Source: Deltaproteobacteria bacterium
Lineage (GTDB): Bacteria; Desulfobacterota_D; UBA1144; Nemesobacterales; UBA2774
Assembly: GCA_040223695.1 (NCBI GenBank)
Contig: JAVKFU010000015.1
Location: 170,534-234,533, forward strand
Direction of reading: 5' to 3'
Length of the DNA stretch: 64,000 nucleotides
Position 1 is the first letter of the stretch. Each line of letters begins with the position of its first letter. The notes below the pieces were generated by a model that saw only the letters and a program-made list of their open reading frames with translations, searched no databases and was not told where the DNA came from. Made by a program: the position numbers and the translations under genes. Of the stretch, positions 44,662 to 54,986 are shown one piece after another.

Positions 44662-45582
44662 TTAATGTAGCCGCGACCCTTTACGATTATCCTGTTTATT
44701 TCTGATAAGCTCTGCCGATCTCTTCCGGAAATAGCCCCACGCGTTTGCAACCTGAGACAGGAACATCAGCACTGAGAGTTTTAGTTTCTGTTTATTCCGG
44801 GCCTTCCGGGGGTAAAGAATCAAATTGACATAAAAGGAAAAAGGCTCAATCCGCATTTTTTGCCGGGACCTTCTTGCCCGTATTTCGTGAAAATTGAAGG
44901 CGCCGATCCCGTAATTGAAATGCTGCCTCAGGAATTTCCCGAATGTAAGCGGATGGGCGTGATTAACGATCACATCCGGGTCGTAGACAGTTCTAAAACC
45001 GTTATAAAGACACCTGTCGCAAAATTCTCGGTCCTCCCCGGCGGCAAGAGGGAATGACGTATCGAATCCGCCTGCTTCCCAAAACCGCTCCCGCGACAGC
45101 GCCATATTATTCGATGTAAGAAACCTTGACCCTTTGTTGTTGTTATAGGCATGCAGATAATCGACAATCAGCTGACTCGCCGTCGAGTAGGGGTTATCCG
45201 GTAACGCGTTGGCGGTTCTTCCGGCTACAAGGCAGTCTTCATCTTGGGTAAACCTGTCAGCCAGTTTGCCGAGCCAGTCACGAGAAGGCTTGCAGTCGTC
45301 GTCCGTGAATGCGAGGAATTTGCCAGTAGCCTCGCGGGCTCCCCTGTTTCGCGCCGCAGCCGGCCCCGCATGCTCCTGAATGATCAATTTGACATCGATC
45401 CTTGTCTGATAAGCCTTCACTACATCTTCAGGACTGTTTGTGCTCCCGTCATCGACTACTATCACCTCGAATTTGTCTTCGGGATATTCAATATTAGTTA
45501 TCGAATCAAGGCAGGCATCCAGCTCCTTGAATCGTTCGTAGGTCGGTATTATGATCGAGAAAGAAGGTCTTGCATTTTCCAT
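44662..45582 (-). CDS. Family 2 glycosyltransferase
   Basis: The product is 306 residues with a GT-A fold. The nucleotide-binding opening SIIIPTYERFKELDACLDSI and the VVDDGST, AAARNRGA and FTDDDCKPS motifs are all present; the last contains the metal-binding DxD-like cluster. A C-terminal region with two hydrophobic stretches may touch the membrane. Sugar and acceptor are unknown. It is the first gene of a surface-glycan group on this strand. Confidence 0.88.
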   Translation of the reverse strand: MENARPSFSIIIPTYERFKELDACLDSITNIEYPEDKFEVIVVDDGSTNSPEDVVKAYQTRIDVKLIIQEHAGPAAARNRGAREATGKFLAFTDDDCKPSRDWLGKLADRFTQDEDCLVAGRTANALPDNPYSTASQLIVDYLHAYNNNKGSRFLTSNNMALSRERFWEAGGFDTSFPLAAGEDREFCDRCLYNGFRTVYDPDVIVNHAHPLTFGKFLRQHFNYGIGAFNFHEIRARRSRQKMRIEPFSFYVNLILYPRKARNKQKLKLSVLMFLSQVANAWGYFRKRSAELIRNKQDNRKGSRLH

Positions 45583-45894
45583 TTTATAGAAATGTTCGTC
45601 AACCGTATATTGATGATCCGGGTTTTCCCTGTTCGTTGTATCTAAATATAAAAGACCCGGTTAAAGATCGAAAGTCTTCGGCCCGCGCTTTTATGAAATC
45701 CGGCTTGCCCGCGTCAATGCCCGGGGAGAAAAGAGGAGGAATTTCTGTAATAAGCGCCATTTGCTTCGCGCTTATTATAATAAATTTTAAATATCCTTTC
45801 AATTAATGAAATGCTTTAGATTTTGCAAATAACTACTACTTATACATAACAAGCTCAATACGTGCGTTTAATATTGGAGTATGATATTTTGCAG
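45583..45894. other. Intergenic region, no gene identified
   Basis: Short open frames exist on both strands here (78 and 67 codons) but overlap each other, have no ribosome binding site and match nothing. The region probably holds the promoter of the glycosyltransferase at 44662-45582. No hairpin or repeat was seen. Confidence 0.6.
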
Positions 45895-47079
45895 CTAACT
45901 GTGACGAGCGCAGAGCGATTCATAAATAATCATCAATTTCTCCAGGTGCTTGTCTGCGCTGAACCTTGACGATGCGCTCATATGCCCGGCTCTTCCAATG
46001 GATTGTGCGAGTGATTTATCTCCTAAAAGCCGAGTCAATTTCACGGTCAGTTCTTCTACGTCCCCGGGGGGGACAAGCAATCCGCTCTTCCCGTTGTCGA
46101 TTATTTCTCTAAGCCCTCCGGTGTCGCTTGCGATAACCGCCGTCCCCCGCATCATCGCCTCTGCGGCTGCCATGCCGAAAGGCTCTTCCCATACGGAGGG
46201 GACCGCCTGCACCCAGGCTTCGCTCAAATGGGAATCGAGATGCGAGCTGGGAATACTCCCGAGCATGGATACATTCGGGGACATGTTCAGGTCGGAAATA
46301 AGCCCTCTTAGTTTTTCAGACTCCGTTCCCTCCCCGGCTATTAGTAATCTGGCAGCGGGGATGAATTTTAATACATTCGCAAAAGCCCGCAGCAATATGT
46401 CCGCACCTTTTTCTCTGACAAGACGCCCTGCGAATGCCACCGTAGGTGTTTCTGATAAGTGGACGTCTGTTCCGGATTCCGGAATACAGTAGTCAAGCAC
46501 TTCGGCGTTATCAATACCATATGAGACCAGTTTGTCCCTTACGGATTCACTATTCGCTAATATCGTATTGAAGGCGCCTCGCCAGCGCCTGAATAATTTC
46601 AGCTGTAGCATGAGAGCGGCCCAGTCACCTGACGGCAGGCATTTATTCTGCCGGCAGGTAATTCCGGGTTTTACGTTACAGAGATTTCCGTCGGGAAGAA
46701 GCTTCGTCCCGGTAGGACAGATAGGGCGGTACCAGGCCACGTGATAAATGCTCGGGATATCCCTTAGCAAGGGCAGTATCAGCGGCGATAGCTGTGTGAG
46801 AAATATCTTTACATGAACAACGTCGGGTTTAAATTCCTTGATTACTTTCCCGAGCTTTAAATACGCCCACGGATTCATAGTTTGAAGCGCGGCCCGAAAG
46901 GGGGAGGTGGTTCCAACGCATGTATAGTCTGCTTCATTGACCTGTCCATCCGCCGCAACATTACTCGTGAATAGCCTTGCATCATGACCTTTATCTCTAA
47001 GCAATTTACGAAGTCTCAATATATATACTTCTGCGCCGCCCAGCGGTACTCCGTAATCGTTCACTAGCAGTATCTTCAT
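45895..47079 (-). CDS. Family 4 glycosyltransferase
   Basis: The product is 394 residues of the GT-B fold. The N-terminal glycine-rich segment MKILLVNDYGVPLGGAEVYILRL is the acceptor-side loop. The C-terminal half has the E-x7-E motif in EPFGMAAAEAMMRG and the VREKGADILLRAF region. ATG 47079 is chosen because the upstream extension overlaps the next gene and does not look like this family. Several cysteines in the middle (KPGITCRQNKC) are unusual. The sugar is unknown. Confidence 0.88.
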   Translation of the reverse strand: MKILLVNDYGVPLGGAEVYILRLRKLLRDKGHDARLFTSNVAADGQVNEADYTCVGTTSPFRAALQTMNPWAYLKLGKVIKEFKPDVVHVKIFLTQLSPLILPLLRDIPSIYHVAWYRPICPTGTKLLPDGNLCNVKPGITCRQNKCLPSGDWAALMLQLKLFRRWRGAFNTILANSESVRDKLVSYGIDNAEVLDYCIPESGTDVHLSETPTVAFAGRLVREKGADILLRAFANVLKFIPAARLLIAGEGTESEKLRGLISDLNMSPNVSMLGSIPSSHLDSHLSEAWVQAVPSVWEEPFGMAAAEAMMRGTAVIASDTGGLREIIDNGKSGLLVPPGDVEELTVKLTRLLGDKSLAQSIGRAGHMSASSRFSADKHLEKLMIIYESLCARHS

Positions 47080-47104
47080 CGTATTAAATTTTATAAGCTT
47101 GTAT

Positions 47105-48091
47105 TCATCGGCTCGATAAAAGCCTTCTGTCCTTTTCAATCAGGTGCTTGAATCTGTCGAATTCAAAATCGTTGATTTGTTGTTGCACAGAGCCGAAACC
47201 AACGGTATAGCCCCATAATTTCCCCAGAAAATGAGCTGTTAGTCCGGAGACAATAATCGGTAACGCCTGAGGCATAAGCTTCCCCCAGTAACCCGCGCGT
47301 CTGATGTTCTGTAATGTTCCGCGGAAATATTTAAGCATGATTAACGGCTCAAGAGAAGCGTTCAGAATGCGCTTCGATAGCGGCCATTTTTTGTGAAGTG
47401 CCAGGGCGGCGGTGTATAACTGGCCGTTATAAAACAAATCGAGCAAAATTGATTTTGTTTTGGTTATATTGATATGCTGGACTTTCGCTCCGGATTCAAA
47501 ATATAGCCGGTATCCCCGTGAGCGCAGGTCCATATGCATGATATTCGTTCTTATAAGCTTGTGTCCGAGTTCGCTTCCGTAATCAATAAGCACGGAGCGT
47601 TTGTAGGAGCTGTTGTGGCCGGGGAGGTCGTTAACTTCTCCCGAGTCCAGGGGTTCTGTCCAGGGTCCGTATGTCATGAATAGCTGCGCCCAGCTCCTCA
47701 AACTGTGGGGATTTGCATTTTTGTGAATACACCCCACGGCGGCCCACGGTCCTTTATGAGCCTCTACAAGGGCCTCCGCCCACACGGGTTCGGGAAATGC
47801 ATGGTTCTCGCCGAATGCGACTACGGGAGCGCTTGATTGATGTACGGCATCGACCCAGGCCTGATAGAGCTCGTTGTCGATGTCCGCCTCAATAATAATG
47901 GTATTGTAAAAATCCTCTAACTCGGTTTCAGCGGATGCCGGTCTCTCTATCCCCGGAGGAGCTATGATTATAACTTCGATCGCTTCTCTGACAGTTTGTT
48001 TGTTAAGGTGCTCGATAGTCGTACGGATTGAATCATAACCGAACGCAGTGGTGATTATGACAGACAGTTGAGGTAAATTTTCGTCTTTCAT
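47105..48091 (-). CDS. Family 2 glycosyltransferase-like protein
   Basis: The product is 328 residues with a GT-A opening (LSVIITTAFGYDSIRTTIEHL). It has reduced motifs: the usual DDGST is replaced by a divergent segment, and a FGENHAF segment stands where the DxD is expected. The C-terminus has a hydrophobic helix. It may be active with a different donor or be inactive. It lies 25 bases before the GT4 gene start on the same strand, so it belongs to the same operon. Confidence 0.75.
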   Translation of the reverse strand: MKDENLPQLSVIITTAFGYDSIRTTIEHLNKQTVREAIEVIIIAPPGIERPASAETELEDFYNTIIIEADIDNELYQAWVDAVHQSSAPVVAFGENHAFPEPVWAEALVEAHKGPWAAVGCIHKNANPHSLRSWAQLFMTYGPWTEPLDSGEVNDLPGHNSSYKRSVLIDYGSELGHKLIRTNIMHMDLRSRGYRLYFESGAKVQHINITKTKSILLDLFYNGQLYTAALALHKKWPLSKRILNASLEPLIMLKYFRGTLQNIRRAGYWGKLMPQALPIIVSGLTAHFLGKLWGYTVGFGSVQQQINDFEFDRFKHLIEKDRRLLSSR

Positions 48092-48132
48092 GTTTATTGC
48101 CCCGGAGTTATGCCGATATGTTTTTTAGAAGC

Positions 48133-49203
48133 TCACAAGCCCGTTAATTCCCGTTTCGGATAATCATTTATTGAAATTACAGCTCCCGATCTCGCGGACT
48201 CCTCGGCCGCTTCTATTACAGACAAACTCATATAGCCGTCCTCGAAATCAGGACTGCATTTATGGTTGTTTCTGACTGCGGACGCGAATTGGTTCAATGC
48301 CAGCTCGAAAGAAGGCTCTCTTCCGGGCGCGAGCATTTTATCCTTCAGATTCGGGCTCCTCAAAAGGGAGCTTATCCCCCTTTGTAGCTGGCGGAGCCTG
48401 CCTTGATTATTTGCGTCGGATTCCGTGACCTCGACGTTTATGGAAAGGTACCGGTCAGCGGTGAGCTTGCCGTTTGTGCCGTATATCTCTATTTCGTCTT
48501 TTTCTATTGAATCGAGCGAGAAGAAGGATTGTATTTCCAAACCGTCCGCCGTAGTTAGCTGCAATACCGCGTGGTCGTGCTCGGTCTTGTAAGAACGGAC
48601 GCGGGCGAATACATCTTTGATTTCAGTCCCGAGGATGTACCGGACAAGGTCGATATGGTGCGAGGCGAGATCGAGCAGAGCGCCTCCTCCGCTTTCCCGG
48701 TGCCGTTTCCACATGGGCAGGGCATGGCTGCTCGATGAGAAAACTGTACGCACATAGGTAACCTTGCCTATTCCGCCCGATTCTATGTGTTTTTTAATCC
48801 CCCGATACAGCGGGTTAAAGCGCAGGTTGAAGCCGATCATCCCGGTCAGACTGCTGTTCTTCCACGCATCCATAACTTTCCTGCCTTCATCCGTATTTCC
48901 GGCCAGGGGTTTTTCAAGGTATATATGCTTTCCTCTGTCGAGCGCGGCAAGCGCAGCCTCCGCGTGAAGTGAGTTGGGAAGGCAGATTATTACGGCATCT
49001 ATGTCCGGCGCCGCCAGAAGATCGTGAAAGTCCGGGTAAACTGAGGCCTCGGGTGCAACCTTACCGGCCGTATCCCTTCCGCCTGTGTCTGAGTCCGCTA
49101 TGGCCACGAGTCTCAGCTGGGACGATTTTTTAAGGATGTTGAGATGCACAAGCCTCGCTATACGGCCGCAGCCGATAAGGCCGACGTTGATAATCGACGA
49201 CAT
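48133..49203 (-). CDS. Gfo/Idh/MocA family oxidoreductase
   Basis: The product is 356 residues. The Rossmann opening GLIGCGRIARLVHL and the catalytic-lysine motif EKPLAGN are intact, followed by the alpha/beta dimer domain with the GGGALLDLASHHIDLVRYILG helix carrying the catalytic His. Members oxidise or epimerise sugars, often nucleotide-linked, at a ring carbon. It heads a three-gene run with two glycosyltransferases, so it probably makes or modifies a sugar for the surface glycan. Confidence 0.9.
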   Translation of the reverse strand: MSSIINVGLIGCGRIARLVHLNILKKSSQLRLVAIADSDTGGRDTAGKVAPEASVYPDFHDLLAAPDIDAVIICLPNSLHAEAALAALDRGKHIYLEKPLAGNTDEGRKVMDAWKNSSLTGMIGFNLRFNPLYRGIKKHIESGGIGKVTYVRTVFSSSSHALPMWKRHRESGGGALLDLASHHIDLVRYILGTEIKDVFARVRSYKTEHDHAVLQLTTADGLEIQSFFSLDSIEKDEIEIYGTNGKLTADRYLSINVEVTESDANNQGRLRQLQRGISSLLRSPNLKDKMLAPGREPSFELALNQFASAVRNNHKCSPDFEDGYMSLSVIEAAEESARSGAVISINDYPKRELTGL

Positions 49204-49539: not shown

Positions 49540-50898
49540 ATGACTGGTAATCCCGCTTTAGACCGCTATGAAAAAATTATATTGGATAATGCTCATGAGA
49601 ATGAGATCGATTCGATATATTTGGAAGCCGTTGCGAGCGCTTGTAGAAAGGCGCGCGCCCAAAAATCCTATAGTTCAAGCTATGACCTCAAGCTTTATTC
49701 GATGGGGACAAGTTTTTCAGGACCTATCCTGACCGCATTCGTTATATGGGTTTTAAGGGGAGCGCACAAAGCAAACATAAAGCGTTTATATTTTATAGCC
49801 CGTGACGGTCAAATTTTATATGAAATTGCACGGAAGCTGATCGTTCGATTCGATTTTAACATCGAGCTTAAGTATTTATACGGATCGAGGCAGGCCTGGT
49901 TTTTACCTTCTTTAAACGAGCTCACGGAGGTTCATGTTGATTGGTTAACATTGAAAAGTCCATTTATCTCTTTGAGAATTTTGACGAATCGGACCGGCTT
50001 GAACCTCCGGTGGGTAGAATCACGATTCTTTGATCAAACGGGACTGAGAGTCGGGGAGGATGAAAATATCAATTGCTTTGAGCAAGAGGTCCGCTCTTTA
50101 TTTCTTAGCAATGAGGTAAAAGCGCGTATTCTTGCCAATGCCGGCGAGCAAAGAAAACAAGTCGTCGGGTACTTTGAGCAAGAAGGCCTTTTTGATGAAT
50201 ACCCTTACGGCATTGTAGACCTGGGGTGGCAGGGAACTATGCAGGATTCAATGATTAAAATTATAAATTCAAATCGCCCGCGCAAAGAAAAAATATACGG
50301 GTTTTATTACGGCCTTGACCTTCTGAATAATCATACGGCTCACGATGACAATCCGAAATTTTCCTATCATTTCGCCACTCACGAATCGATACCGGTCGAT
50401 TGGCGCATTAAGTATTTTCTGGAGTTCATAACAACAGGAGATCATGGAATAACGCTGGGTTACCGGCTGGATGACCGGGGTGGATACGTCCCGGTTTTAA
50501 AGGAAAGTATCAATGCCGACGCCATGGCGTGGGGGCTTCAGAACCTCAGGCTTGGTATTCACGGATTTATAGATGCGCTGATGCAACAGAGTCATTTTGA
50601 TCTTAGAAAGTGGGATGTAAATGCGTTTAGACGCATTATAACATCAATGTTTAAAAAGCTCGTACATGAAACAACCCCTCTGGAGGCGGAAATAATAGGA
50701 AGCTATCTCTTGAAAGAAGACCCCTGCGAAACGTACTCTGAAGAATTCGCTCCAAAATTAAAATTCTGGAAAACAGTGTTGGGCTCCCCGGTAAGTTCAT
50801 ATTGGGTGCAGGCCTCTCTTATGCGCAGCGGTATTTCGGTGCGCCTTTTACATCGAATTAAAAGTAATCTTCCCCGCCTTGCTTCTCCACAAAATTAA
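49540..50898 (+). CDS. HAD-like capsule/polysaccharide-type protein (COG5610-like)
   Basis: The product is 452 residues. The opening segment RLYFIARDGQILYEIARKL and the later YGIVDLGWQGTMQDS segment are found in large HAD-superfamily-related proteins encoded in capsule and rhamnan loci; their exact reaction is unproven. The classical HAD DxDxT loop is not clear, so catalytic type is uncertain. The gene is visibly richer in A and T than the neighbours and stands alone between two copies of a promoter repeat, which suggests transfer with its own promoter. Confidence 0.7.
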   Translation: MTGNPALDRYEKIILDNAHENEIDSIYLEAVASACRKARAQKSYSSSYDLKLYSMGTSFSGPILTAFVIWVLRGAHKANIKRLYFIARDGQILYEIARKLIVRFDFNIELKYLYGSRQAWFLPSLNELTEVHVDWLTLKSPFISLRILTNRTGLNLRWVESRFFDQTGLRVGEDENINCFEQEVRSLFLSNEVKARILANAGEQRKQVVGYFEQEGLFDEYPYGIVDLGWQGTMQDSMIKIINSNRPRKEKIYGFYYGLDLLNNHTAHDDNPKFSYHFATHESIPVDWRIKYFLEFITTGDHGITLGYRLDDRGGYVPVLKESINADAMAWGLQNLRLGIHGFIDALMQQSHFDLRKWDVNAFRRIITSMFKKLVHETTPLEAEIIGSYLLKEDPCETYSEEFAPKLKFWKTVLGSPVSSYWVQASLMRSGISVRLLHRIKSNLPRLASPQN

Positions 50899-51265: not shown

Positions 51266-53641
51266 ATGAATCCGGAAATACTACTCGCGGGAGCGGCGCC
51301 CCCATTTCTGGCCGAGATAGTGGCAATCGTCGTCGTAAGCGCCGCCGCCGCATACATATGCCAGCGGCTGGGCCTGGTTCCCATTGTAGGCTTTCTAATA
51401 GCGGGCGTATTGATAAGCCCTAACTTATCGGGCCTGGTTACGAATAGAGAATTAATAGAGGCGACCGCGGAAGTAGGTGTAATACTCCTTCTTTTCACGA
51501 TCGGTTTGGAGTTTAGTCTTGAGAAGCTGGGAAAGATTAGAAAGCTGATCTTTTTCGGCGGTGGCATACAGGTAATTCTTACTTCGTTTCTGGTCATGCT
51601 GATTCTCGCGGTATTCGGCATAAACTGGATGATAGGTATCTTTACCGGATTCCTGATAGCGTTAAGCTCAACCGCGATAGTGCTCAAGATTCTGGCCGAC
51701 AGGGGGGAAACAAATACCCCTTCGGGACAAATCGGTCTGGGTCTTCTGATTTTTCAGGACTTGGCCATAATACCCATGGTCTTGCTTGTCCCTGTACTGG
51801 GAGGGCAGGCAGGCTCCAACCAGGAGATAGTTATTGCGCTTGCGAAGGCAGCCGCGGTAATCGCGGCTGTGCTGGTTCTGGCGCGCAGATTCATGCCTAA
51901 GGTGCTTGAGATAATATCCAGGGCCTGCTCGCCCGAGATTTTTCTCCTGAGCGTAATAGCTATTTGTTTCGGGACTGCGTACTTAACCAGCCTGGCGGGC
52001 GTGAGCGTCTCACTGGGCGCGTTTCTCGCCGGTCTGGTCGTAAGCGAGAGCAGGTTTTCCCAGAATGCCATGAGCGAAATACTGCCTCTCCAGACACTTT
52101 TCAGCGCGACTTTTTTTGTCTCCGTAGGAATGCTCCTTGATATTACTTTCTTCCTCGACAATTTCGTCATGATTGCCTTGATAGTTTTTGTCGTTCTTCT
52201 AATCAAGGTCCTTACTACAGGTGTAAGCGCCGTATCTCTCGGCTACAAAATACCGGTTGCGGTTGCCTCGGGGCTGATGCTCGCTCAGATCGGGGAGTTC
52301 TCCTTTGTTCTTGAACGCGCGGGAAGGGAAGTAGGGATGTTCCCTGCCGGAATGGCCGAGACGGGCTCTCAAATATTCATCGCTTCAACCGTAATATTGA
52401 TGATCCTGACTCCGTTTCTAACTCAGTTAGGTATGAAGCTAAAAGGCCGGATGGGCGATATGGCCGACGAAAAAGGCGCGTTGGAAAAGGAATTTCAACT
52501 CAATCAGGACAATCTTCCCGATCTTCAAAACCATGTGATAGTGGCCGGTTACGGAAAATGCGCCAGAAAACTGGTGCGAGTTCTGTCGAACTCCGGAATT
52601 CCTTATATTATAACGACGCTAAGCCCTCTAGGCGCCAACGAGGCTGAGTCTCAGGGGTTTCCGGTCATACGCGGGGACGCAAGCAAATATCATATTCTGG
52701 ATTTAGCCGGAATACGCTACGCGAAGATGCTCATTATTCCCGACGATGAGCCTTCGATGGCGCACCGGATTTCCTCCGTCGCCCATAATCTCAATCCGAC
52801 TATGCTGATACTCGTAAGAACCCGGTACGCTGAGGATATGGACGACCTAAAGAGGGCAGGGGCAAGCGTGGTCATTCCGGAAGAGCTCGAAAGCATCGTT
52901 CAGCTAATCGTGAGTATTCTGCATGATTACCAGCTTCCTCTGGAGGAGATCGAAAGGCACATAGAAACCATGCGGGGCGATAATTATGCTGGTCTGGATG
53001 AAACGGAGCTGTCTGGTAAGAACAAAATAACTTGTGAGAATTTAAATGAAGACTGCCTCGATACTCGGAGGGTCATTATCAAACCGGATACGCCGATTGC
53101 GGGTAAAGCTATACGCGATTTAAATCTCGAAGATTACGGAATTACGCTTGAAGAGATCAAGCGTGACGGGGAAAAAATAAACCCGGCTCCGGACCTCTTC
53201 TTTGAACTGAATGATCAGATACTTTTTTCGGGATCCGCACAAAGCTTCTATGAATTTTCCTCTCTATTAAGCTCGCCTGATTTAGAACTCGCGGACTCGG
53301 CGGAAATTCAAGATTCAGCAGTGAGAGACGCACCCTATATTAACACCGAGGAGTTTGTACAACCTCCTTCTGATATCGATCCCGCCAAATGCAAACATGC
53401 CGATAAAATGAGAGCTGTAGTTCCGAGTGCGGCGGGGTGTGAGGAATGTATCAAAACCGGCGACAGATGGGTGCACCTCAGGATTTGCATGACGTGCGGG
53501 CACACGGGATGCTGCGAGTCTTCTAAAAACAAGCACGCGCTCGGACATCATCACGAAACAGGCCATCCTATTGTGAAGTCTCTCGAACCCGGGGAAGACT
53601 GGGCCTGGTGTTACGTTGATAAAAACTATGTTAATGGATAA
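51266..53641 (+). CDS. Kef/YbaL-type cation/proton antiporter with TrkA domains and a C-terminal UBP zinc finger
   Basis: The product is 791 residues. About twelve membrane segments (to about 400) have the CPA2 motifs (LLFTIGLEFS, FLIALSSTAIVLKILADRGE, FQDLAIIP). A TrkA-N Rossmann domain follows at about 421-540 with NHVIVAGYGKCARKL, where the third glycine of the nucleotide loop is Ala. A TrkA-C domain lies at about 596-658. Residues about 708-785 form a UBP-type zinc finger: CKHADK, CEEC, CMTCGHTGCC and an array of His (HALGHHHETGH). Kef proteins export K+ with proton entry under thiol control. The zinc finger is an unusual regulatory addition that binds C-terminal tails of ubiquitin in eukaryotes; its bacterial ligand is unknown. 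Confidence 0.88.
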   Translation: MNPEILLAGAAPPFLAEIVAIVVVSAAAAYICQRLGLVPIVGFLIAGVLISPNLSGLVTNRELIEATAEVGVILLLFTIGLEFSLEKLGKIRKLIFFGGGIQVILTSFLVMLILAVFGINWMIGIFTGFLIALSSTAIVLKILADRGETNTPSGQIGLGLLIFQDLAIIPMVLLVPVLGGQAGSNQEIVIALAKAAAVIAAVLVLARRFMPKVLEIISRACSPEIFLLSVIAICFGTAYLTSLAGVSVSLGAFLAGLVVSESRFSQNAMSEILPLQTLFSATFFVSVGMLLDITFFLDNFVMIALIVFVVLLIKVLTTGVSAVSLGYKIPVAVASGLMLAQIGEFSFVLERAGREVGMFPAGMAETGSQIFIASTVILMILTPFLTQLGMKLKGRMGDMADEKGALEKEFQLNQDNLPDLQNHVIVAGYGKCARKLVRVLSNSGIPYIITTLSPLGANEAESQGFPVIRGDASKYHILDLAGIRYAKMLIIPDDEPSMAHRISSVAHNLNPTMLILVRTRYAEDMDDLKRAGASVVIPEELESIVQLIVSILHDYQLPLEEIERHIETMRGDNYAGLDETELSGKNKITCENLNEDCLDTRRVIIKPDTPIAGKAIRDLNLEDYGITLEEIKRDGEKINPAPDLFFELNDQILFSGSAQSFYEFSSLLSSPDLELADSAEIQDSAVRDAPYINTEEFVQPPSDIDPAKCKHADKMRAVVPSAAGCEECIKTGDRWVHLRICMTCGHTGCCESSKNKHALGHHHETGHPIVKSLEPGEDWAWCYVDKNYVNG

Positions 53642-53942: not shown

Positions 53943-54986
53943 CTATGTTCGCCTAAAGAGTTTATTATATGTCCTTACAATCTTGCTAAGCAAGTTCAGT
54001 CCCCAGGAATATAGCCCCAGCATCAACATAACTCTCCAGGAGAATCGTCTTAATATGCTGGGTACTTTCCTTCCTTTTGACACATCGAATATCTTTGATG
54101 CATCTGTGTTCGTAAGGAAGCTTGTTATATAGGAAAAGGAAGAGCTGGAATCGATAATAAGATAATCACATTCTGCAAGCAGGTATAAATCAATGAGTGA
54201 TTCGACACCGCTCGTCATTGGATCCGGACAGTTTCTATTGTCGTGAATGCGTGATCCCGGTCCCGGGTACCAATGCGGGGTTGTAATAACTCCCGGGTAA
54301 TTCTCTTCGAACATTTTTTTGATCTGGATATTATCGGTTGCAAGGAATATCTGCAGGTTGGTTTCGTGTTTCAAAAGAGTGTTGAGTTTATCAAGTATTG
54401 GAAACAGACTAGCCCTGTAATCCGAGTAACGGATGTGTACGCCGACAGTTTTCCCTCTGAATTTTTTGTTTTTTAAATTTGTGACCATGTTATGAATCCG
54501 TGGTTGAAGTAAAAGGTCTTCCCGCAGTAACATCCTTAAAATCTCTTCCTTGCTCATCTGTATTAACTCATCGTAAGAACCCTTAAAATGGCTCCTCAGA
54601 AGGTTTACATGTTCGTGGTAGGACCACATTACCAAAATATCTTCGTCATAATCGAGCCTCCTTAAATCTATTGAGGTTTTTTGCCTGAATTCCTTGATAC
54701 TGTTATGGTCTCTTCGCATAGTGGCTACAGACTCATTTAGTCGGTTTTGCCAGACTGACGGGCATACGGTGCCTGTTGCCGGAATTTCATCCATTGAGCC
54801 GCTTGATTCACAGAGAAAGAATTGAGGAAACGCGTTGAAGCCGTTATTTGAGTATGTAGAGTCGCTCCAGTCCACGATTAATCTCCTGTCGCTAAGACGC
54901 GCGTACAGAATTCCGGTCAGAGCTACGAGCATTCGATTGCCTAACCCGGCCACGCCTTTTACGATGAGAAATTTATCCCGGCTCAT
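53943..54986 (-). CDS. NodZ/FUT-like alpha-1,6-fucosyltransferase-fold protein
   Basis: The product is 347 residues. The signs are the opening FLIVKGVAGLGNRMLVALTGILYAR and the central GVHIRYSDYR loop, both seen in NodZ/FUT8-type (GT23) and related GT-B fucosyltransferases that use GDP-fucose. A C-terminal basic segment with hydrophobic helix may tether it to the membrane. The donor and acceptor are unknown here. It belongs to the surface-glycan region by position and is AT-rich. A tRNA-Thr gene separates it from the antiporter. Confidence 0.65.
   Translation of the reverse strand: MSRDKFLIVKGVAGLGNRMLVALTGILYARLSDRRLIVDWSDSTYSNNGFNAFPQFFLCESSGSMDEIPATGTVCPSVWQNRLNESVATMRRDHNSIKEFRQKTSIDLRRLDYDEDILVMWSYHEHVNLLRSHFKGSYDELIQMSKEEILRMLLREDLLLQPRIHNMVTNLKNKKFRGKTVGVHIRYSDYRASLFPILDKLNTLLKHETNLQIFLATDNIQIKKMFEENYPGVITTPHWYPGPGSRIHDNRNCPDPMTSGVESLIDLYLLAECDYLIIDSSSSFSYITSFLTNTDASKIFDVSKGRKVPSILRRFSWRVMLMLGLYSWGLNLLSKIVRTYNKLFRRT

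Follow-up and report, generated by a model that had tools for sequence, protein, structure and literature searches.

A Kef-type antiporter ending in a bacterial UBP-type zinc finger in Candidatus Dadabacteria

A UBP-type finger at the end of a Kef-type antiporter

What does a UBP-type zinc finger, a domain known for binding the C-terminal tail of ubiquitin, do at the end of a bacterial cation/proton antiporter? The question is raised by a gene in a 64,000-nucleotide stretch of contig JAVKFU010000015.1 (assembly GCA_040223695.1, positions 170,534 to 234,533 of the forward strand; hereafter the window), which comes from a member of Candidatus Dadabacteria, a little-studied group. The gene (window positions 51266–53641, plus strand) is an open frame with an ATG start, and its 791-amino-acid product is a Kef-type CPA2 antiporter that ends in a zf-UBP domain. 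We refer to it as Kef-UBP.

Four Pfam domains, all above their cut-offs, follow one another in the order given by the original prediction, which had been made from the letters of this DNA: a Na_H_Exchanger (CPA2) transmembrane domain (residues 24–385, 51335..52420, 1.5e-47), a TrkA_N/KTN domain (residues 424–537, 52535..52876, 8.7e-18) that holds A433 and T451, a TrkA_C domain (residues 602–668, 53069..53269, 3.8e-10), and the finger (residues 709–790, 53390..53635), all on the plus strand. The finger was delimited by Pfam, alignment, and predicted fold; the Pfam match itself spans residues 725–790 (2e-12; score 47.6 bits, PF02148 cut-off 22.7). The closest solved structures by sequence are the cryo-electron microscopy entries of KefC for residues 20–539 and 2IDA for residues 708–786. 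Because two further Dadabacteria genomes carry full-length orthologues (L011, 77% identity; L008, 61%), the fused frame is no assembly accident, and together with the fused clade described below these orthologues rule out an assembly or frameshift artefact. A full-length AlphaFold model (mean predicted local distance difference test score, pLDDT, 65; predicted template modelling score 0.44) was set aside.

The antiporter part matched the KefC, KefB, and YbaL models, and the KefC structures at an E value of 7e-59. It carries the ion-site motif FQD (Q164 D165), aligned to KefC D156, and this Q-D motif was present in 11 of 11 fused and 28 of 29 unfused antiporters. A Na_H_Exchanger domain with the Q-D motif, followed by a KTN/RCK domain, is the architecture of a Kef-type CPA2 protein. 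The scores against the NCBIfam equivalog models, of which KefC, YbaL, and KefB came nearest, were far below their cut-offs (309.9 bits against 752 for KefC; 242.2 against 804 for KefB). K+ is the presumed transported ion, and K+/H+ exchange the presumed activity.

The zinc ligands are retained and the tail-gripping arginine is replaced

HDAC6 ZnF-UBP has a three-zinc arrangement. The conservation of the Kef-UBP finger was read from an alignment of 63 sequences. The first ligands, C709 and H711 (CxH, 53390..53398), and the pair C725-x2-C728 (53438..53449) were invariant, as were the W, L, R, and both cysteines of the following segment (53468..53497), which joins a bacterial WVHLR insert to a CxxC motif (W735, R739, C741, C744). 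Further along, the alignments placed a vicinal cysteine pair and the site of the USP5/HDAC6 tail arginine in C749-C750-E751-S752-S753 (53510..53524), three histidines in H757, H761, and H767 (53534..53566; the first two invariant, the third over 90%), and the pocket aromatics with the last zinc ligands in W779-x-W781-C782-Y783-x-D785 (53600..53620), where Asp stands for Cys; all lie on the plus strand. In full, the invariant positions were C709, H711, C725, C728, W735, L738, R739, C741, C744, G745, C749, C750, S753, H757, H761, E777, W779, and C782; H767, W781, and D785 were nearly so.

The ligand set comprises Cys709, His711, Cys725, Cys728, Cys741, Cys744, Cys749/750, His757, His761, His767, and Cys782, and the twelfth position, a Cys in HDAC6-type domains, is Asp785. 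In relatives the position is taken by Asp, by Cys (L005), or by His (Deinococcus), each of which is a zinc-binding residue. By analogy with HDAC6, the 12-ligand set would be complete if Asp785 substitutes one Cys. With this one substitution, the complete Cys/His set that had been predicted stands, and compared ligand by ligand with UBP domains the zinc positions are kept rather than lost. The finger is presumably zinc-loaded, going by its residues. The same set would suit a zinc sensor, in which loading or loss of zinc at a labile site switches the antiporter, since the D785 position is unusual, possibly weaker, and varies among Asp, His, and Cys. UBP zinc sites are, however, normally structural and tight, and no zinc transporter or regulator was noticed beside the loci viewed, whose neighbours were not exhaustively scanned; we consider a zinc sensor very unlikely.

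Which cysteine of the vicinal pair serves as ligand depends on the template: HDAC6 spacing favours C750, and USP16 spacing favours C749. The other member would be a free thiol, one unseen in the aligned eukaryotic sequences. The pair was also present in each of the 26 sequences for which it had not been a criterion of the search pattern. An AlphaFold model of residues 700–791, built on the 63 sequences, reached a mean pLDDT of 87.6, and its fold matched 2IDA with a template modelling (TM) score of 0.83 and a root mean square deviation of 1.3, and the HDAC6 ZnF-UBP with a TM score of 0.72. Pfam score, fold, and ligand set agree in placing the domain in zf-UBP (PF02148).

The finger had been described as a eukaryote-type module. 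This description did not survive comparison, because the closest solved structure, 2IDA (E 1e-32), is a standalone bacterial protein and the subfamily is broadly distributed across bacteria and archaea (a single scan gave at least 593 loci). A recent transfer from eukaryotes was ruled out, the nearest relatives being hundreds of bacterial and archaeal loci. In most genomes the finger is a standalone protein of about 85–100 amino acids, publicly annotated as 'UBP-type zinc finger domain-containing protein'.

One of the ligands first proposed as possible for the finger was a free C-terminal di-glycine. Ubiquitin binding by USP5 depends critically on R221: with R221K the dissociation constant rises from 2.3 to about 100 micromolar, about 43-fold weaker, and the RRY-to-KWF triple change abolishes binding (PMC3247260). 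In HDAC6, R1155 and Y1184 are key contacts with the terminal glycine of ubiquitin, and the R1155A/Y1184A double mutant serves as a binding-deficient control (PMC10424181). At the corresponding site, the E751/S752/S753 positions, none of 87 bacterial sequences had Arg or Lys. The tail-binding pocket is partly lost: the gripping Arg has given way to non-basic residues in 87 of 87 sequences, and the aromatics W781 and Y783 remain at the positions of HDAC6 W1182 and Y1184. Because the tail-contacting Arg/Lys is missing, binding of ubiquitin or a Gly-Gly tail by the window finger is unlikely, and the proposed di-glycine ligand finds no backing. That the finger grips a ThiS/MoaD-like or other di-glycine tail and thereby gates the antiporter would be in keeping with the match to the HDAC6–ubiquitin complex and with the two aromatics; set against the missing Arg and the effect of its loss in USP5 and HDAC6, it is the least probable explanation considered here.

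Non-ubiquitin ligands of zf-UBP domains have a precedent: the USP20 and USP33 fingers show no measurable ubiquitin-tail binding and use the same site to hold a different motif (PMC13376213). The bacterial WVHLR insert, which HDAC6 lacks in the alignments, contributes an invariant Arg739.

The fused antiporters form a clade with an altered KTN site

Kef-UBP is not an isolated case. In a tree of 40 antiporters (11 fused, 29 unfused), calculated with the finger removed, a branch at 100/100 split off the fused set, with members from Dadabacteria, Acidobacteriota, Chloroflexota, Myxococcota, and Gemmatimonadota. The window protein belongs to this clade by its monophyletic antiporter part, its C-terminal finger, and its KTN Thr. 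In a small set of 58 Dadabacteria genomes, six had a zf-UBP match of any kind, fused to an antiporter in three, the window's included; unfused antiporters of other Dadabacteria reached no more than 38% identity to the window protein. Likewise, 297 genomes of Acidobacteriota, the phylum of locus L014, held six antiporters at 52–60% identity, the next best being about 41%. Over the first 560 residues, all intact antiporters at 51% identity or more carried the finger, and none at 42% or less did, as judged from the open reading frames; L112 and L007, the latter clipped by the end of its stretch, are incomplete exceptions. In L112 (G261) a stop codon precedes the finger, whose coding sequence persists downstream, and in L015 the frame changes within the transmembrane part of the fused gene; these interruptions are either assembly errors or decaying copies.

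Two Deinococcus plasmids also encode Kef-UBP proteins (L146:4926-6956 and L147:4848-6881), annotated as just cation:proton antiporters; they lie outside the 40-protein tree and have His instead of Asp at the last zinc-ligand position.

The KTN domain sets the clade apart. Its glycine loop reads GYGKCA, with A433 as the Ala of GxGxxA, and the change from Gly to Ala was found in 9 of 11 fused and 0 of 29 unfused proteins. The acidic residue at the end of beta-2 (KefC D429, T451 here) was Thr in 11 of 11 fused proteins, and in three further fused sequences (L015, L142, L146), and Glu or Asp in 29 of 29 unfused ones. An altered nucleotide response, originally suggested from the loop Ala, gains support from this clade-wide replacement of the acid by Thr. 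As the TLSPxGANEAE stretch at the Thr is conserved within the fused clade, the ligand site seems to have been repurposed and not to have decayed.

The finger was at the C-terminus of every fused member. TrkA_C was absent and the finger kept in L014, L017, L024, L145, L146, and L147, so that within the tail the finger is retained more consistently than TrkA_C.

The finger family adjoins reductase-like genes

The genomic company of the finger was surveyed in 80 loci of the genome scan. Every Pfam-confirmed fusion of the finger was to an antiporter. Kef-type fusions were found at L013, L014, L015, L017, L023, and L024 (L013 and G006 are apparently the same contig); the finger was also joined to short CPA2 proteins without a KTN domain (L052:8005-9495, L084:4792-6279) and to a CPA1 antiporter (L056:2211-4109). 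Since three kinds of antiporter are involved, the fusion to cation/proton antiporters probably had more than one origin; a UBP-domain tree had too few columns to resolve the number of events. Nine other candidate fusions (L021, L032, L033, L036, L060, L067, L072, L082, L088) were discarded: Pfam found just the finger, so the long frames there are taken to be spurious extensions in GC-rich DNA.

A thioredoxin-reductase-like gene lay near the finger at 25 of the 80 loci, mostly 19–500 bases away, against 0.15 expected from the density of reductase-like copies in 44 of the genomes. All six reductase-like proteins examined had an N-terminal cyclic nucleotide (cNMP)-binding or response-regulator receiver domain; such sensor-domain genes lie at L008:10389-12047, L009:8669-10327, L010:10765-12420, L011:5759-7459, and L145:11218-12903. 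Where the active site was readable, the CATC motif was missing and a Cys stood further downstream (YYxAxxxEAxxC-like). By these features, the proteins would constitute a sensor-coupled, redox-altered reductase-like family of unassigned function. In the Dadabacteria genome G034, genes for Kef-UBP, for a standalone finger, and for a reductase-like protein lie side by side; G006 has a reductase-like gene convergent with that for Kef-UBP, and in G342 such a gene lies about 1.5 kb away.

These associations bear on two further explanations. As a structural or assembly module, which might for example stabilise the dimer of the regulatory tail and would receive no signal, the finger should always be C-terminal and outlast TrkA_C as a substitute dimerisation module, and it does both. 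The same domain is, however, free-standing in most genomes and tied to a sensor-coupled enzyme, which favours a signalling role and makes a purely structural one unlikely. The nearest rival to the reading that we put forward below is a pure docking domain, through which the tail would recruit a reductase-like enzyme, a thioredoxin, or a chaperone by a non-ubiquitin motif and with no redox chemistry at its cysteines. W781 and Y783 are kept, the Arg at R739 is new and invariant, and the conserved neighbour genes could provide partners; set against this, no motif was identified and no conserved partner lies near the window gene. We regard a pure docking role as possible but doubtful.

Thioredoxin adjoined the finger only in Nocardiaceae and at one acidobacterial locus, and this adjacency is for that reason not taken as general evidence. 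On a Rhodococcus plasmid (L148:1-5936), dnaJ, cbpM, clpB, trxA, the finger gene, and a cNMP/TrxR-like gene form a run in which the trxA, finger, and reductase-like genes overlap; the same run occurs in the Nocardiaceae relatives L049 and L067.

A thiol-responsive gate is tentatively proposed

In KefC, RCK domains with bound glutathione and AMP inhibit transport, and the residues of the glutathione site have been described (PMC11150392). In Kef-UBP these residues are kept only in part, the equivalents of R416 and R498 alone remaining, so the protein is not a KefC or KefB proper by this comparison and canonical glutathione gating was rejected.

Our preferred explanation, held tentatively, is that the finger tail gates K+ efflux by thiol-redox chemistry or by docking of a partner, in the role that glutathione plays in KefC. 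At rest, the KTN dimer and the zinc-finger tail would keep the transporter closed. Thiol, oxidative, or electrophile stress would then alter the tail by modifying its cysteine cluster, including C749-C750, or the tail would dock or release a stress-response partner protein. Once the block is lifted, K+ would leave and H+ enter, and the cytosol would undergo protective acidification, much as KefC opens once glutathione adducts displace glutathione. The link to thiol or oxidative stress is suggested by the sensor-coupled thioredoxin-reductase-like genes that the finger family adjoins; the stress signal and the direction of gating are likewise conjectured from sequence.

Several observations weigh against this explanation. 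The KefC glutathione-site residues are partly retained in the alignment with the KefC structure, which means that the sequence neither demands nor precludes control by glutathione, and the host genome encodes a glutathione synthetase of the GSH-S_ATP type. The partner enzymes lack a redox-active CxxC where the site is readable and need not act on disulfides. The host genome (assembly 95.6% complete) has no sensor-type reductase-like partner, which counts against docking as well, and encodes only an ordinary CATC thioredoxin reductase; the partner is therefore not obligatory. The zinc cysteines may owe their conservation to structure alone, and no experiment on any family member was found in the open literature.

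More broadly, and with greater reserve, one could suppose that bacterial UBP fingers are a ubiquitin-free redox module that couples sensor-driven TrxR-like enzymes to cation/proton antiporters and that replaces the glutathione gate in Kef-UBP; we think this rather doubtful. If it holds, Kef-UBP would turn thiol stress into K+ efflux through a protein zinc-thiol switch and not through a small-molecule adduct. Kef antiporters are a bacterial defence against toxic electrophiles, and glutathione is their well-understood gate; a clade that spans five or more phyla and combines an altered KTN site with a Cys-rich zinc domain would be a second gating route, and would offer a testable function for a widespread bacterial finger whose name still implies ubiquitin. 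In the open literature we found no paper that joins a UBP-type zinc finger with an antiporter, a thioredoxin reductase, or TrkA; the one match for such a finger in bacteria was a paper on ataxin-2. The parts are of known kinds; their combination, the clade-wide KTN change, and the link to reductase-like genes were not found there.

Genes around Kef-UBP in the window

The direct neighbours of the Kef-UBP gene are a 452-amino-acid open reading frame without a Pfam match, upstream on the same strand (49540-50898), and a convergent NodZ-like fucosyltransferase gene (53943-54986). Glycosyltransferase-like and oxidoreductase-like frames lie further upstream (44662-49203).

Comparison with known systems

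The window finger resembles the ZnF-UBP domains of HDAC6, USP5, and USP16 in fold, zinc-ligand spacing, and pocket Trp/Tyr, and differs from them in having no tail-binding Arg, an extra vicinal Cys, the WVHLR insert, and Asp for the last zinc Cys. The eukaryotic zf-UBP domains of USP20 and USP33 share the fold and bind a [KR]xxL[NED] motif, a specificity for which the sequence of the window finger gave no evidence. RPA1320 of Rhodopseudomonas palustris (PDB 2IDA) is closer, with 57% identity and the same WVHLR insert, GCC, and WCYxD; however, it is a standalone protein of unassigned function with no transporter partner domain, whereas the window finger is joined to an antiporter. The unfused Kef-type antiporters of Dadabacteria and Acidobacteriota share Na_H_Exchanger, TrkA_N, and TrkA_C with Kef-UBP, but are at most 42% identical to it, lack the finger, and have GxGxxG and Glu or Asp in the KTN site.

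The transmembrane and KTN domains of KefC and KefB align with Kef-UBP along about 520 residues. Within the KefC glutathione site, R416 and R498 are retained as R438 and R520, whereas R409, Q412, and R516 are changed to K431, R434, and P538; the beta-2 acid D429 is replaced by T451 and the third loop Gly by Ala. Finally, Kef-UBP differs from KefC and KefB in carrying the UBP finger itself.
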